Below are positions 42,083-48,326 of a stretch of 64,000 nt of DNA, piece by piece. How positions within the stretch are numbered: the first letter of the stretch is position 1; every line of letters starts with the position of its first letter. The DNA is taken from NCBI GenBank assembly GCA_020048055.1, contig JAIFNA010000002.1:96023-160022 (forward strand), in the 5' to 3' direction. Below the pieces are notes generated by a model that worked only from the letters and a program-made list of their open reading frames with translations, searched no databases and had not been told where the DNA came from. Made by a program: the position numbers and the translations under genes. The stretch is from Arcobacter sp. Its GTDB lineage: Bacteria; Campylobacterota; Campylobacteria; Campylobacterales; Arcobacteraceae.

Positions 42083-42178
42083 CTACAAAATTACATCAGC
42101 TAATTTATATAGGTATTGATCGAATCTATCAGTCCAATTTTCAATTTTGTTATTTATAGTTGTAATAATCGAGTTCAT
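42083..42178 (-). CDS. 31-aa small ORF divergent from the S24 repressor gene
   Basis: The ATG at 42178 has a strong AAAGGAG 6-7 nt upstream, better than most genes here. The 31-residue product (MNSIITTINNKIENW start, KLADVIL end) is predicted as one soluble amphipathic helix and is not a membrane peptide. It is transcribed away from the S24 repressor gene with the 12-bp palindrome between them. I recognise no family. It occupies the only substantial part of the 319-bp gap between oadG and the repressor. The remaining ~100 bp before oadG shows nothing clear. Confidence 0.45.
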   Translation of the reverse strand: MNSIITTINNKIENWTDRFDQYLYKLADVIL

Positions 42179-42248
42179 ATTATGCTCCTTTGATTTTTTT
42201 ATTTAAAAAGTATTGCATAAATAAAATAATTAATATTAAAATATTACA

Positions 42249-42282
42249 ATTTGACATATTTTTATATTATAATATGTCAAAT
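42249..42282. promoter_or_regulatory. Operator/promoter of the S24 repressor gene
   Basis: A perfect 12-bp inverted repeat ATTTGACATATT / AATATGTCAAAT (arms 42249-42260 and 42271-42282, 10-nt spacer) encloses the -10 hexamer TATAAT (42268-42273). A bound dimer would block polymerase, so autorepression is likely. The ribosome-binding site TAGGAG follows at 42289. Confidence 0.7.
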
Positions 42283-42299
42283 AATAATTAGGAGTCGAT

Positions 42300-42953
42300 A
42301 TGATAGATGTATTAAAAGTGATTGAGAAGTTAAAAACTGTTCTTAGTGAAGAGCATAACAGAAAAATTTTTGATAAAGATGTAGCCAATGAGCTTGAAAT
42401 TTCTCAAGCAAATTTTGCAACTATGAAAACTAGAAATAAGATTCCATATTCAAATATTCTTGATTTTTGTGCAATAAAAAAAATATCAATAAACTGGCTT
42501 TTTTATGGGCAAGACCCAAGCAGTCTTATAGATAGTACAGATAAATATTGGATTAAATTCTTTCCATCTTTAAATTTAAGTGCTGGCGGTGGTGGTGAAC
42601 ACAATGATGAAGATTTTGAAAAACTTGAAATTCCCCATTACTTTACACAAATTTTAGGCTCAAGCTCTAAGATGGAAAATATGCAAGCAATAAGGGTTAC
42701 AGGCGATAGCATGGAGCCAACTTTAAACAGTGGCAATATAATTTTTTTGGACACTTCAAAATGTGATCCGAGTCGAGATGGTATTTATGCTTTTTCAAGT
42801 GAAAATGGATTGTTCGTAAAGAGAATTCAAAAAAGAGTCGATGGAAAACTTGACATAATTTCTGACAATAAAGAATACCCAAAGCAAATTGTCGATAAAA
42901 ATGATATTAAAATAATTGGAAAAATTGTTGGACTATTTGGACAGATTTACTAG
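42300..42953 (+). CDS. S24-family self-cleaving repressor (CI/LexA-like)
   Basis: The 217-aa product has an N-terminal helix-turn-helix of the CI repressor type (about 25-70, KDVANELEISQANFATMK) and a C-terminal S24 serine peptidase domain. The cleavage site is Ala95-Gly96 (LNLSAGGGG), the nucleophile Ser137 (TGDSMEPT) and the general base Lys174 (GLFVKRI). Such repressors cut themselves when stimulated by RecA filaments. It is not LexA (no LexA-type winged helix). A palindrome overlapping its own -10 box suggests autorepression. Prophage origin is possible though no other phage genes adjoin. Confidence 0.88.
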   Translation: MIDVLKVIEKLKTVLSEEHNRKIFDKDVANELEISQANFATMKTRNKIPYSNILDFCAIKKISINWLFYGQDPSSLIDSTDKYWIKFFPSLNLSAGGGGEHNDEDFEKLEIPHYFTQILGSSSKMENMQAIRVTGDSMEPTLNSGNIIFLDTSKCDPSRDGIYAFSSENGLFVKRIQKRVDGKLDIISDNKEYPKQIVDKNDIKIIGKIVGLFGQIY

Positions 42954-42992
42954 ATACTTACAAATTTAATATTTAAAATAAATTTTCAAATT

Positions 42993-43016
42993 ATGTATTT
43001 TAGTGATAGAATACAT
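42993..43016. promoter_or_regulatory. Second dyad with -10 box, in front of the V4R operon
   Basis: An imperfectly related inverted repeat ATGTATT / AATACAT (7-bp arms, 10-nt spacer) encloses an extended -10 box TGATAGAAT (hexamer 43007-43012). Spacer length and the offset of the -10 hexamer from the dyad centre (+2.5 to +7.5) are identical to those of the repressor's own operator. Confidence 0.5.
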
Positions 43017-43092: not shown

Positions 43093-43320
43093 ATGGAAAA
43101 CAAAAATGCACAATTGATATTTACATGGGCAATAAAAAATGGTGAATCAAAAATTGTAGATAGGATTTTAGTCAAACTTATGCCCAAACTAATCAGTTTT
43201 GGCTGTGCACTAACGGCCGAAGATATTACCTCTCAAGATTCAGTAATGGTTCCATCTGAACTTTTCGAATTAATTCAAAAAACAGCTGAGGAACTACTTG
43301 GCATGAAATTTGAAAACTAG
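43093..43320 (+). CDS. 75-aa hypothetical protein upstream of the V4R protein
   Basis: A soluble, helical 75-residue product with no signal peptide or motif I know (FTWAIKNGESKIVDRILVKL, then VPSELFELIQKTAEELLG). It has a ribosome-binding site ATAGGAAAA. The stop codon overlaps the TAGGAG ribosome-binding site of the V4R gene, with 8 bp between the genes, so the two are coupled. A role as its partner subunit is an inference from that spacing. Confidence 0.6.
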   Translation: MENKNAQLIFTWAIKNGESKIVDRILVKLMPKLISFGCALTAEDITSQDSVMVPSELFELIQKTAEELLGMKFEN

Positions 43321-43328
43321 GAGTTTTT

Positions 43329-44564
43329 ATGATATTTGATGTAACAAACTACGAATTTGATAGAGAACATGGTGCTTTTGATATAGGCGGAGAAGCTATG
43401 ATTTTTCATTGTCATCACTACTTAAATTATCTTCAAAGATCAATTTTAGATGCTGATTATATAGATAGTAGGCCATTCTTAATAGGTGCTGCTGCTGATT
43501 CTGCTTATAATCAACTTTCTAATTTAACAAATAGTTTATCAAAAAATGATGCTCTTAAATTAATAGAAAGTGTCTACAAAACATTTGGTTATGGAATTAT
43601 TGATCTTTCGAGTCTAAATGCTAGCGGTGGAACAATCGTAACAAAAGATTCTTTTTACTCGTCAACTTGGATTATGAAATTTACAAAAAGTACTAAACCG
43701 GTTGATTATTTTACAACTGGATATATTGCGGCTGCATTTGCTGTATTATTTGATATTCCTCTTTCACAAGTTAGTGCAAAGCAAACAAAATGTCTAGCAG
43801 TTGGGGACAATGAAAATGAGTTTATAATTGAAAACAGTGAATGCAATTTCAAACTATATGCAAAAAAATCACCAACTAAATTTAAAGATGTTCCAAAACA
43901 CAAAATACCTTGGGAACACGAGGATGTTATAACTGATGCTTTTGTAGGTGCACACACAATGCTAATTGGAAATACAGATGGGATAATTCCTGCATTTGGT
44001 GTTTATGTTACAAGAAATTACAGTGACTATGTAAATAGACTTCAAGTTGAATTTATAGATGCGATGAAGGAAGCAGCCGGCATGTATGGCGTAACACTTG
44101 GTAGAGAGCTAATGATGGAGGCTGGTTATGCTTGTGGATTTTTTACATATGGAGGAATTATGACATCACCAGAATGGGAAGGGGCAGTTAAGCCGTATCT
44201 AAAAACAAAAGAAGATTGGATAGCTGGTCTTGCGTCACTAGTGAATGCTATGGGCTGGGGATACCATACTGCAATAGAAGTTTCCGAAACATTTTCAATA
44301 TTTAGAAATTATAACGACTTTGAAGATATGAGCTATATAAGAATGTATGGTGAAAGTTCAGATTATCCTGTGTCATGGGCAAATGCTGGCGGATTTGCTG
44401 GGCTTTGTCAACTTATTTACCAAACTGAACTTACAAATGGAAATCCAATTGAAACCGAAGAAGGCTTTAGACAAATGAGAAGAAATAAAGTAAGTTATAA
44501 AACAAAAATGACTAAAAGTATAGTAACTGGTGATGATTTTTTAGAAGCTGAAGTTTATATTTAA
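43329..44564 (+). CDS. Tandem V4R-like domain protein
   Basis: The 411-aa product reads as two related halves. The first (about 1-185) ends in a V4R-like core: DYFTTGYIAAAFAVLFD, then SAKQTKCLAVGDNENEF with the conserved Cys. The second (about 195-411) repeats the plan with WANAGGFAGLCQLIYQ and SIVTGDDFLEAEV, but the Cys is absent. V4R is a small-molecule-binding fold found in 4-vinyl reductase and in sensors of aromatic or tetrapyrrole ligands. His-rich FHCHHYLNYLQ near residue 27 could bind metal. Ligand and output are unknown. The double-kinase gene converges on it. Confidence 0.6.
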   Translation: MIFDVTNYEFDREHGAFDIGGEAMIFHCHHYLNYLQRSILDADYIDSRPFLIGAAADSAYNQLSNLTNSLSKNDALKLIESVYKTFGYGIIDLSSLNASGGTIVTKDSFYSSTWIMKFTKSTKPVDYFTTGYIAAAFAVLFDIPLSQVSAKQTKCLAVGDNENEFIIENSECNFKLYAKKSPTKFKDVPKHKIPWEHEDVITDAFVGAHTMLIGNTDGIIPAFGVYVTRNYSDYVNRLQVEFIDAMKEAAGMYGVTLGRELMMEAGYACGFFTYGGIMTSPEWEGAVKPYLKTKEDWIAGLASLVNAMGWGYHTAIEVSETFSIFRNYNDFEDMSYIRMYGESSDYPVSWANAGGFAGLCQLIYQTELTNGNPIETEEGFRQMRRNKVSYKTKMTKSIVTGDDFLEAEVYI

Positions 44565-44588
44565 CACCCACAATAATATCAAGAGATT

Positions 44589-47500
44589 CTATCCTCTTGG
44601 TATTGCTATTTCAAAACATGCTCCAAAATACTCATTTGAACTTACTTCAAAAGCCTTATTGCAAACAGATATTTTCCCTTTCATATGTTTTTCAACAATA
44701 TCTTTACTCATATAAAGCCCTATTCCTGTCCCCTGACTTTGATGCTTTGTTGTAAAATAAGGATCAAAAACTTTATCTATAATATGTGACGGTATTCCAC
44801 CTGCATTATCTTGAATAGTGACGATATTGAAAAATTCATTTTGCGATGATGATATATATACAATTTTAGTATCAATTTCTCTTTCTATTAAAACATCTCT
44901 TGCATTATTTAAAATATTTAAGAATACTTGTGATAATTCATGTGGATAACCTAAACTTTTTAAAATAGACTTATTTTGGCTAAATATTACATCGACCAAA
45001 TTTATTTTATAAGTAGATGACACAATATCATACGCTTTATGTAAAACATTTAACATATCAAACTCTACAATTTCCTTATCTTCCCTAAAAAATCCTCTAA
45101 AATCTTCAATAGTTTGGGTTAAAAATGCTATATATTTCATAATGTCACTATATGATTTATTTATCTCTTCATTTGTTGCAATATTCAAATCAATTTGTAA
45201 TTGCATTGATGAAGCAGTTGAACTTATAGCACTTAGTGGTTGCCTCCACTGATGAGCAATATTCCCTATCATCTCACCCATTGTTGCAAATCGTGACTGC
45301 AAAATCATCTGTCTATCTTTTTGTCTATTTTTTAAAACCTCTTGCTCAATTTGCCCCTCGAGGTTGAAAACTAATTTTTTTAGCTCCATCTGAGTATTAA
45401 TTCTAGCAATAAGCTCTTTTGGCTTAAATGGCTTTGACAAATAATCATCTCCTCCAACATCATAAGCTTTTTCTATACTAGCTTCATCTGTATTGGCTGT
45501 CAAAAATATCACAGGTATATTGGATGTTTCGCTATCTTGTTTTAATATTTTACAAACATCATATCCGCTCATTCTTGGCATCATAATATCAAGCAAAATC
45601 AAATCAATTTTTGTTGTATTAATAATATCCAAAGCTATTTTGCCACTAAGTGCACAAATAATATTAAAATCGTTTTCCAAAAGTCCAACTAAAATATCTA
45701 AATTTGTCTCAGTATCGTCAACGGCTAAAATTGTCTGTTTATTTTCTTTTATTAAATTTTGTACTACTTTTGATTCGTATTCTTCATTTTTATGGACCGT
45801 ATTGTCTTTAAAATCTTGAAGCTCAAATAATAGATCTTGAAGTACATTTTTAAATTCTTCAATATTTTCCAAAGAAACATTATCTTCCAGTTTGACAATA
45901 ACCCTGTGTAGTTTGTATGCACCTATGTTTCCACTAAGACCTTTTATATTGTGCAAAATTTCAACTATACCATCTTGTTTTTTCTCCAACAAAAGATCAA
46001 AGCTATAAGGTAAATCCAAATAATCTTCTAAAAAATTAAGCAATACTTTTATATATAGTTCACTATTTCCTCCCATATGGGAAAGACCCAGCTCAACATC
46101 AAGATGTTTAAAATTAATAAATAAACTATTATCAACTACATGGGTATTGTGTGTTTCGTCTAAATCAACTTTTTTTGACAAATACTTCAGCAAAGTAGTA
46201 AATAATTTTTCCACATCAATCGGTTTACAAAGATGTTCATTCATACCAACAAGTCTTGTTTGTTTTATATCTTCTATCATTGCATTTGCACTTAATGCAA
46301 TAATTGGTATATTTCTATTGATTGCTCTTATTTGTCTAGTTGCTTCATATCCGTCCATTATAGGCATTTGGGTGTCCATCAAAAATAATTCATACTTATT
46401 TGGAGTTTCAATAAATTTTTCGACTGCTATTTTCCCATTTGATGCATATTCTAAAATAATATTTGAATTTTCTAGCAATCCTGTGATTATCTCTTTATTT
46501 AATTCATTATCTTCAACAATCATGATAACAGAACCAGCTCTTGTTTTTAATTCATTTTTTAAAACAGATTCATTACCCAAACGTTCCAGTTTATTAATTT
46601 TAAAATCATTATGAAAAATCTGCAACAACATCTCATACAAGTAAGACGGATTAATTGGTTTTGGTAAAAATAACTCAATACCAATTTTTCTACCCGTGTT
46701 TGTTAGCTCTTCTTGATTGTAGGCACTTGTCATGATCACATTAATGTGATTATTGTGTGTAAATTTTTTAAGTTGTTTGATTGTTTCAATACCATCAAGG
46801 TCTGGCATTTTCCAGTCAACAAGAACTAAATCGTACATTTTTTTATTATTTTTCAGCATAGCCAATGCTTCTTTTCCACTAGATGCACAATCAACATCAA
46901 GTCCAAATTCATTTAACATATCACTTAGAATTGTTTGCCAAGATTTTGTATCATCAACAACAAGGACATTTTTCCCTGTAAATTTTGTTGTGTTTCTAAT
47001 GATTTTTTCATTTTCTTTTAGCTCAACCTCAAAGAAAAAAGAACTACCTTTTTCATATTCACTTTCAACCCAAATATTTCCATTCATCAATTCAACAAGT
47101 TGTTTGGAAATAGACAATCCAAGTCCTGTTCCGCCATATTTTCTTGTTGTGCTTCCATCAGCTTGCGAAAAAGACTTAAATATTGTGGCAATTTGCTCAC
47201 TTTTTAAGCCAATACCACTGTCCCTTACCTCAAAAAGATATTTATTTTGAGTTGTTTTTTTAACATAAATTCCAACTTCACCACTATTTGTAAATTTTAT
47301 AGCATTTGAAGTAAGATTGGTAAGCACTTGGGTTAACCTTGTTGGATCACCAAAGAGATTCATGTTTATATCTCTCTCATAAGATATTATAAATTCCAAA
47401 TCTTTTTCATGCGCTTTCAATTCAACAATATTGACAACACTTTCTATAACTTGATAAAGATTAAAATCAACATTTTCAATTTCCAATTTACCTGCTTCTA

Positions 47501-48326
47501 TTTTACTAAAATCCAAAATATCATTAATAATGCTTAGTAGATTTTTTGCCGATGAGTCTATTTTATTTAGATAATTTCTCTGCTTTTCATTGAGTGAAGT
47601 TTGCAATGCTAAATAGCTCATACCAATAATTCCATGCATTGGAGTTCTAATTTCATGGCTCATATTTGCCAAAAATTCACTTTTTGATTTTACTGCCATT
47701 TTAGCTTCAGTCATAGTTTTTGTAAGCTTCTTTGTTCTATCTTCAATTTTTTCTTCGAGTTCTTTTTTCTCTTTTATCATTGCTTGATAAAAAATAATAT
47801 TATTTACAGATGATGATAAATTTGAAATTAGATTAAAAAGTGCAATGAGTGAAAATTTATCAAATAATTCTGCTTCTTTAGAGTTACCAACGATAATCAA
47901 TCCAAAAGGTACTTCAATGTCTCCGCCGAACAATTCAATCGCACAGTCACCTAAAAATAGACTATTTACCAACTGCTCTACTAATTTATTTGGATTACTT
48001 TGCTCATGAATAATATGATTTCTGCTTAATCTTAAATGTTCAACAATCTCTCCACTTAGTAAAAGATTAATAATATTTATAATTTTAAGCTGCATTGGAT
48101 TTTCGTATCCAATAGATTTATGAAGCTTCAAAAGCCCAGTTGACTCATCAAGCAAAAATATCAAAGCCCTTTCAAAATGTAGTTCATCAATAATAAATTT
48201 AAAAGTTAACTCAAAAATATCATCTAGACTTGTTTGTTCACTTATCTCTTTCCAATCTTTATGAAGTTTTGAATAAAACTCCATCTGTTTTTCTAATTTT
48301 ACTTGTAATTCCAAGTTATCCCTCAT
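44589..48326 (-). CDS. Double hybrid histidine kinase (GAF-HK-REC-REC-Hpt-REC-HK)
   Basis: This 1245-aa soluble protein holds two complete kinases. In order: a GAF-like domain (about 20-180), a coiled coil, kinase 1 with [12 protein letters not shown] (His224) and HATPase ([18 protein letters not shown], to 437), REC1 (Asp504), REC2 (Asp651), an Hpt domain with [14 protein letters not shown] (His792), REC3 (Asp913), a coiled coil, and kinase 2 with [16 protein letters not shown] (His1025) and HATPase ([20 protein letters not shown]). It has no DNA-binding or enzyme output. REC3 with kinase 2 resembles separate proteins of this phylum, so the gene looks like a fusion of two. Confidence 0.92.

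Follow-up and report, generated by a model that had tools for sequence, protein, structure and literature searches.

The 64,000-nucleotide stretch of DNA considered here (the window, a name for the whole stretch; positions 96,023 to 160,022 of contig JAIFNA010000002.1, GenBank assembly GCA_020048055.1) comes from the 2.0-Mb genome of an Arcobacter sp. and encodes, at 42300 to 42953 of the forward strand, a 217-amino-acid (aa) protein that joins a phage CI-type helix-turn-helix (HTH) to an S24 peptidase domain. Comparison with related genomes makes it very probable, as a reading of sequence, that this captured phage-CI-like repressor serves as the LexA substitute of the Arcobacteraceae and runs their SOS gene set. 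The operator motif, its targets, its conservation, its co-occurrence with the repressor, the catalytic residues and a fixed operator-to-promoter spacing can be read directly in the DNA. As would be expected of an SOS master regulator, one operator is common to the repressor's own gene, recA and the gene for a translesion polymerase.

A CI-type S24 repressor in genomes without LexA

The protein exceeds the cut-offs of the Pfam models PF07022 (Phage_CI_repr) and PF00717, which are its only Pfam matches; no LexA-type winged helix was found in it, and against the LexA model TIGR00498 it scores 21.5 bits, far under the cut-off of 110.95. None of 60 related genomes encodes a protein above that cut-off, which 6 of 14 control genomes pass. 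The putative cleavage site A95-G96 and the predicted catalytic dyad S137 and K174, residues expected of a self-cleaving S24 protein, are invariant in all 39 orthologs and homologs compared. The predicted fold, a model of modest quality (pLDDT 66.8), has the lambda-186 repressor and LexA as its best matches in the PDB; a search of the PDB by sequence with the same protein gave no match.

The gene has the CI-type HTH and S24 domain of a phage CI repressor and lies outside any phage or prophage, with oadA and oadG upstream of it in all six named relatives, a chromosomal context. Related proteins occur in Campylobacter and Helicobacter phages at 30 to 35% identity, and homologs at 41 to 45% identity reside on plasmids of Aliarcobacter, Sulfurospirillum and Sulfurimonas. 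In several genomes (among them G053, G039 and G050, and with second copies G008, G001 and G055), an S24 homolog divergently adjoins a Y-family polymerase gene; some of these pairs are probably plasmid borne.

The operator at the repressor, recA and polymerase genes

Alignment of 30 orthologous upstream regions revealed a palindromic operator with the consensus AATATTRCA-N3-TGNMATATW. It is present upstream of all 30 orthologs, and positions A4, T5, C8, T13, G14, A17 and T18 are identical in every one of these promoters. In the window the operator is the 21-bp sequence AATATTACA-ATT-TGACATATT at 42240 to 42260. Scored with a matrix built from the 30 repressor-promoter sites only, it is the best site in the window by a wide interval (24.3, the next being 9.7), and the repressor's own promoter is also the best operator site in its genome.

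The earlier note on this DNA had suggested looking for further sites in the genome, and such a search, by pattern, had among its best matches, apart from the repressor itself, sites in front of the genes for RecA, a Y-family polymerase, a C5-methyltransferase and YifB/ComM. With the same repressor-promoter matrix, the recA operator was found at -81 to -136 in all 30 loci first examined (shuffle p at most 0.005) and in five of a further seven family genomes, bringing the count to 35 of 37 in the family. Among 22 genomes outside the family, a recA site is present in four, which are exactly those with a repressor match of at least 185 bits, and in none of the other 18 (p=1.4e-4; neither this nor the following p values are corrected for phylogeny). 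Across all genomes the recA site accompanies a close repressor, by that same threshold, in 36 of 36 cases and occurs in 3 of 23 others (Fisher 6e-13). The 185-bit threshold was chosen after the data had been seen; at a second threshold of at least 140 bits, the counts are 37 of 42 and 2 of 17 (p=4e-8). Genomes whose homologs have clearly different recognition helices are without a recA site of the family type, G028 excepted. In 22 hand-picked genomes out of the 36, the half-sites at the repressor and recA promoters were more alike within a genome than between shuffled genomes.

The Y-family polymerase gene has an upstream site scoring at least 10 in 21 of 25 family loci; the site is missing in G013, G028 and G030, which have no close repressor, and in G023. 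In control windows this score was reached in 12 of 733, and by their positions 8 to 9 of the 12 are repressor promoters, one is a polymerase promoter and 2 to 3 are unexplained.

Operator-to-promoter geometry

At most targets an extended -10 element starts exactly 22 bp past the operator. In a set of 46 promoters, five from the Arcobacter genome itself and the rest from fetched contexts, the best extended -10 lay at offset 23 in 35 and at offsets 22 to 24 in 36, compared with 3.5 in shuffles. The 30 recA promoters show the same element column by column (T23 in 27, G24 in 29, T26 in 29, A27 in 30 and T31 in 30), and the polymerase promoters place it at offset 23 in 13 of 21 and at offset 22 in three more, in a set that omits two loci with weak sites and one for which no start was found. 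Allowing at most one mismatch, the composite pattern of operator and extended -10 occurs in the Arcobacter genome at exactly five places, namely, upstream of the polymerase, recA, methyltransferase and YifB/ComM genes and of a 31-aa open reading frame (ORF) divergent from the repressor; at up to three mismatches there are 20 places, compared with 9 in a reversed control.

The repressor promoters are built differently. In 10 of 30 the highest-scoring extended -10 lies partly within the operator (offset -6), in 8 of 30 it begins 4 to 5 nucleotides (nt) past the operator, and the rest are scattered; in the window, the -10 box TATAAT lies at 42268 to 42273 on the forward strand. If the extended -10 elements are correctly assigned, the operator at the targets would span about -58 to -38, which is the region of UP elements. 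The fixed spacing points to an operator placed over the UP-element region, in promoters that may do without a -35 box.

A wider set of target genes

A pattern search of the Arcobacter genome returned 160 matches, compared with 72 for a reversed control. A separate, sequence-only operator model, searched across 37 genomes, brought up many further sites, and 40 of these from ten genomes, a set that mostly leaves out repressor, recA and polymerase sites, were read in context; none of the 40 falls inside an ORF of at least 100 aa. Hidden Markov model (HMM) scans, including those of 26 neighbouring proteins from the fetched contexts, confirmed DinD (twice), RadC (twice), RadA, YifB, RecA, C5-methyltransferases and ORF6N proteins behind the operator, and further neighbours named in this way were a UvrD-like helicase, a YhcG nuclease, DNA methyltransferases, GmrSD and RhuM. 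RmuC and DprA were clear in Pfam and fell under the NCBIfam equivalog cut-off, and a DNA-repair radical-SAM protein (TIGR03916) had one NCBIfam match, its homolog in another genome having been scanned with Pfam only, as radical SAM. For further neighbours of the ORF6N, RhuM and methyltransferase kinds the naming rests on inspection by eye. The YifB site is not among the results of the motif-model search, probably through the scoring of only 150 candidates, so that YifB/ComM as a target rests on the pattern searches.

Genes for ORF6N, Bro-N (DinD) and RhuM proteins are numerous behind the operator, some of them several per genome (L195 to L234); these phage-type genes appear to have been recruited to the regulon. 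In the Arcobacter genome a degenerate composite site with three mismatches (L271, C5:101110) stands 76 nt ahead of an ORF that looks, by eye, like a restriction-modification protein and is a possible further target.

The divergent 31-aa ORF

On the reverse strand, divergent from the repressor, lies the 31-aa ORF MNSIITTINNKIENWTDRFDQYLYKLADVIL (42083 to 42178, coding 42086 to 42178). Its extended -10, TGCAATACT, is at 42209 to 42217 on the same strand, 22 bp from the operator edge, and makes this one of the composite sites with one mismatch. Of the 30 orthologous loci, 24 have an ORF of exactly 31 aa (23 pass by score, and L008 falls just under the threshold); it is preceded by a sequence resembling a ribosome-binding site and has an invariant D20. 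Over nine overlapping close pairs, the mean proportion of synonymous differences (pS) is 0.55 and that of nonsynonymous differences (pN) is 0.13. The gap from operator to ATG is 56 to 62 nt in 22 of 23 loci, and the best extended -10 on this side lies at offset 23 to 24 in 16 of 30. In a search of 60 genomes all 24 strong matches adjoin the repressor, as is to be expected of a model made from the same sequences, and a second strong copy was not found. We propose that the ORF encodes an SOS peptide, or a partner of the repressor by analogy with DdrR, the corepressor of UmuDAb in Acinetobacter. It is much shorter than DdrR.

The two dyads and the V4R operon

The earlier note had started from two inverted repeats, one at the repressor promoter and one before an operon of a 75-aa ORF and a V4R protein (43093 to 44564, forward strand), and had read them as possible operators of a single regulon. 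Both repeats are confirmed letter for letter: dyad 1 at 42249 to 42282, with arms ATTTGACATATT and AATATGTCAAAT, and dyad 2 at 42993 to 43016, with arms ATGTATT and AATACAT, each around a spacer of 10 nt. The equal placement of their -10-like hexamers also holds, TATAAT and TAGAAT each beginning 2.5 nt past the dyad centre.

Dyad 1 is rare by chance: when its region was simulated with a Markov model, repeats with arms of at least 12 and a spacer of 3 to 20 appeared in 0.9% of runs. As a functional operator it is rejected, for all 30 orthologous promoters carry another, 21-bp site that overlaps dyad 1 only by its right half. Dyad 1 consists of that half of the operator and an extra half-site; a reading by eye of the promoters of genus relatives showed no such downstream arm. 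Dyad 2 is near the level given by base composition: arms of at least 7 with a spacer of 10 occur in 8.9% of simulations, and another dyad of its shape lies at 42962 to 42985 in the same 139-nt gap. Dyad 2 together with a five-of-six -10 box at the equal offset occurs in 0.57% of simulations, a feature picked after the fact. Dyad 2 is not an operator of the repressor family.

The claim that the repressor controls the V4R operon did not survive scoring: as an operator, nothing in the V4R promoter scores above -5.3, compared with 24.3 at the repressor's own site. Upstream of the V4R orthologs in two relatives, G001 and G022, the scores are -1.0 and -0.7, and neither an operator nor a matching dyad was found there. 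V4R is present in 3 of the 60 genomes, this one included, and lies on contigs other than the repressor's in the other two; a protein like the repressor is matched in 48 of the 60. The operon is in our reading an accessory module outside the proposed regulon.

In four of six named related loci argF lies no more than 1.2 kb past the repressor, and none of the six has V4R; because of this the V4R-kinase module between repressor and argF is most simply read as an insertion. In G001 and G022 a homolog of the 75-aa ORF comes before the V4R gene, and after it comes a relative of the histidine kinase found beside V4R in the window, so that the 75-aa ORF, V4R protein and hybrid histidine kinase travel together (window 43093 to 48326; L033; L034). 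The kinase gene lies downstream on the same strand as V4R in those two genomes and is convergent with it in the window. The 75-aa ORF had no match in Pfam or NCBIfam. The three genes look like a V4R-coupled signalling module.

Proposed mechanism and alternatives

In the model that we favour, a repressor dimer would bind AATATTRCA-N3-TGNMATATW and shut off its own gene from an operator over, or just upstream of, the -10 box. A single site at about -58 to -38 would control recA, the Y-family polymerase, YifB/ComM, DNA methyltransferases and the divergent 31-aa peptide, together with other genes for repair, recombination and functions resembling phage defence; there the bound repressor would mask contacts of the alpha-subunit C-terminal domain (alpha-CTD) at the UP element. 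DNA damage would lead to RecA filaments, these to cleavage at A95-G96 by S137 and K174, and cleavage to release of the regulon. The general idea of the earlier note, a self-cleaving repressor as a damage-triggered switch outside the phage setting, is upheld as a prediction by the operator at recA, the translesion polymerase and repair genes across the family, with the V4R operon struck from its targets. We also consider it possible, as a tentative proposal, that the Arcobacteraceae have rebuilt a full SOS response on the captured repressor, in a design for which no LexA counterpart is known and in which the operator doubles as an UP element 22 bp from an extended -10, promoters form uniform cassettes and the 31-aa peptide is a built-in effector or co-regulator.

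Several points weigh against the model as a whole. Binding, repression rather than activation, RecA-dependent cleavage and induction are all steps that we infer. G006, G010 and G028 keep the recA site without a close repressor; the first two are drafts (92 and 91% complete), and G028 has a homolog at 41%. G023 has the repressor and a polymerase gene without the site, and the family genomes G013 and G030 have neither a repressor hit nor a recA site. In both of the latter recA stands directly behind the apparent end of another gene, with no separate promoter visible (L131 and L132); because the preceding sequence reads in this way, the old recA promoter may have been lost through rearrangement. 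Some operator neighbours had no Pfam match (L204, one at L209, L218, L219, L230 and L232), and others have no clear link to repair (L206, TPR; L208, DUF5718; one at L210, Cu-oxidase_4). Two sites in the Arcobacter genome, C2:14136 and C2:27469, seem to fall within genes and are probably due to chance.

Fixed spacing and a position upstream of -35 are, moreover, also typical of activator sites, and the repressor could be a dual regulator that represses itself and, when intact, activates recA and the other fixed-spacing promoters, like lambda CI at PRM. The unvarying gap between operator and extended -10 across many unrelated targets, with the operator just upstream of -35, would fit such a role, yet cleavage after damage would then reduce the repair genes, DinD and Y-family polymerases are damage induced elsewhere, and the operator centre lies near -48, not -42. 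We regard this explanation as unlikely. Repression is preferred since the operator of the repressor's own gene overlies or borders the core promoter, and since the targets are genes of the damage type. Activation in a comparable system does have a precedent, since UmuDAb and DdrR of Acinetobacter are also described as coactivating nine genes (PMC10808703).

It is distinctly improbable that a different DNA-binding protein, tied to the S24 gene by shared ancestry, binds the motif: the recA sites kept in G006, G010 and G028 would be explained, but the best site in the Arcobacter genome is the repressor's own promoter, and G053, G050, G037 and G039, whose homologs have other recognition helices, are without a recA site. 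That the repressor acts through the two dyads on both its own gene and the V4R operon is very improbable; the dyads are real, with equal spacers and -10 offsets, and the genes are adjacent, but the negative operator score, the lack of a dyad at V4R orthologs, the rarity of V4R and its location on other contigs elsewhere, and its apparent insertion before argF all speak against it. Hardly credible at all is the view of the S24 gene as a leftover of a prophage with no role in the cell, to which its phage relatives might point; we reject it on the conserved chromosomal context and the invariant catalytic residues, and its targets are chromosomal repair genes.

Significance and comparison with known systems

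According to PMC2912397, lexA is absent from Helicobacter pylori and Campylobacter jejuni, and H. pylori has no SOS response. In the portions consulted of the open-licence literature on LexA and SOS in Epsilonproteobacteria, Arcobacter, Campylobacter, Aliarcobacter, Campylobacterota and Sulfurimonas (including PMC6511836 and PMC12710356), no earlier report of this regulon was found; one may exist elsewhere. If the model is right, an SOS-like regulon in relatives of H. pylori and C. jejuni would change the picture given above and offer a way to approach mutagenesis and stress tolerance in bacteria of the Arcobacter type. The fixed operator geometry and the 31-aa peptide both lend themselves to direct tests. 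The Discussion of PMC13148647 proposes self-contained, divergent repressor units as the material from which SOS networks are rebuilt, and the divergent S24-polymerase pairs and plasmid homologs described above fit such starting units. Two stages of rebuilding would then stand side by side: as the starting stage the single repressor-polymerase pairs of related families, and beside them the large regulon of the Arcobacteraceae.

As far as the sections consulted of each source describe them, three systems come close. The LexA-like repressors of Bacteroidetes (PMC8565304) are likewise phage-like S24 proteins with a Ser-Lys dyad, and they run an SOS network where the whole phylum lacks LexA; they differ in phylum and in that a common operator was not tested there, and no mention of Arcobacter, Campylobacter or Epsilonproteobacteria was found in those sections. 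FddR of Francisella (PMC13148647) resembles the present case in that a paralog controls dinB in some species, but its network is small, recA is uninduced and its motif is GTG-N11-CAC, whereas in the Arcobacteraceae recA and many repair genes carry the site. The FddR operator is not matched here, the core being TNNCA-N3-TGNNA. UmuDAb and DdrR of Acinetobacter (PMC3978071, PMC7273328, PMC11332147 and PMC10808703) share damage control without LexA, a repressor of the S24 family and a small divergent corepressor, DdrR; UmuDAb is a UmuD homolog according to its papers, whereas the repressor described here has a CI-type HTH (PF07022) at its N terminus. With canonical LexA the Arcobacter repressor shares an S24 domain with Ala-Gly, Ser and Lys and, in silico, the control of recA and a Y-family polymerase, from which it is set apart by a different HTH and by a score far under the cut-off of the LexA model.
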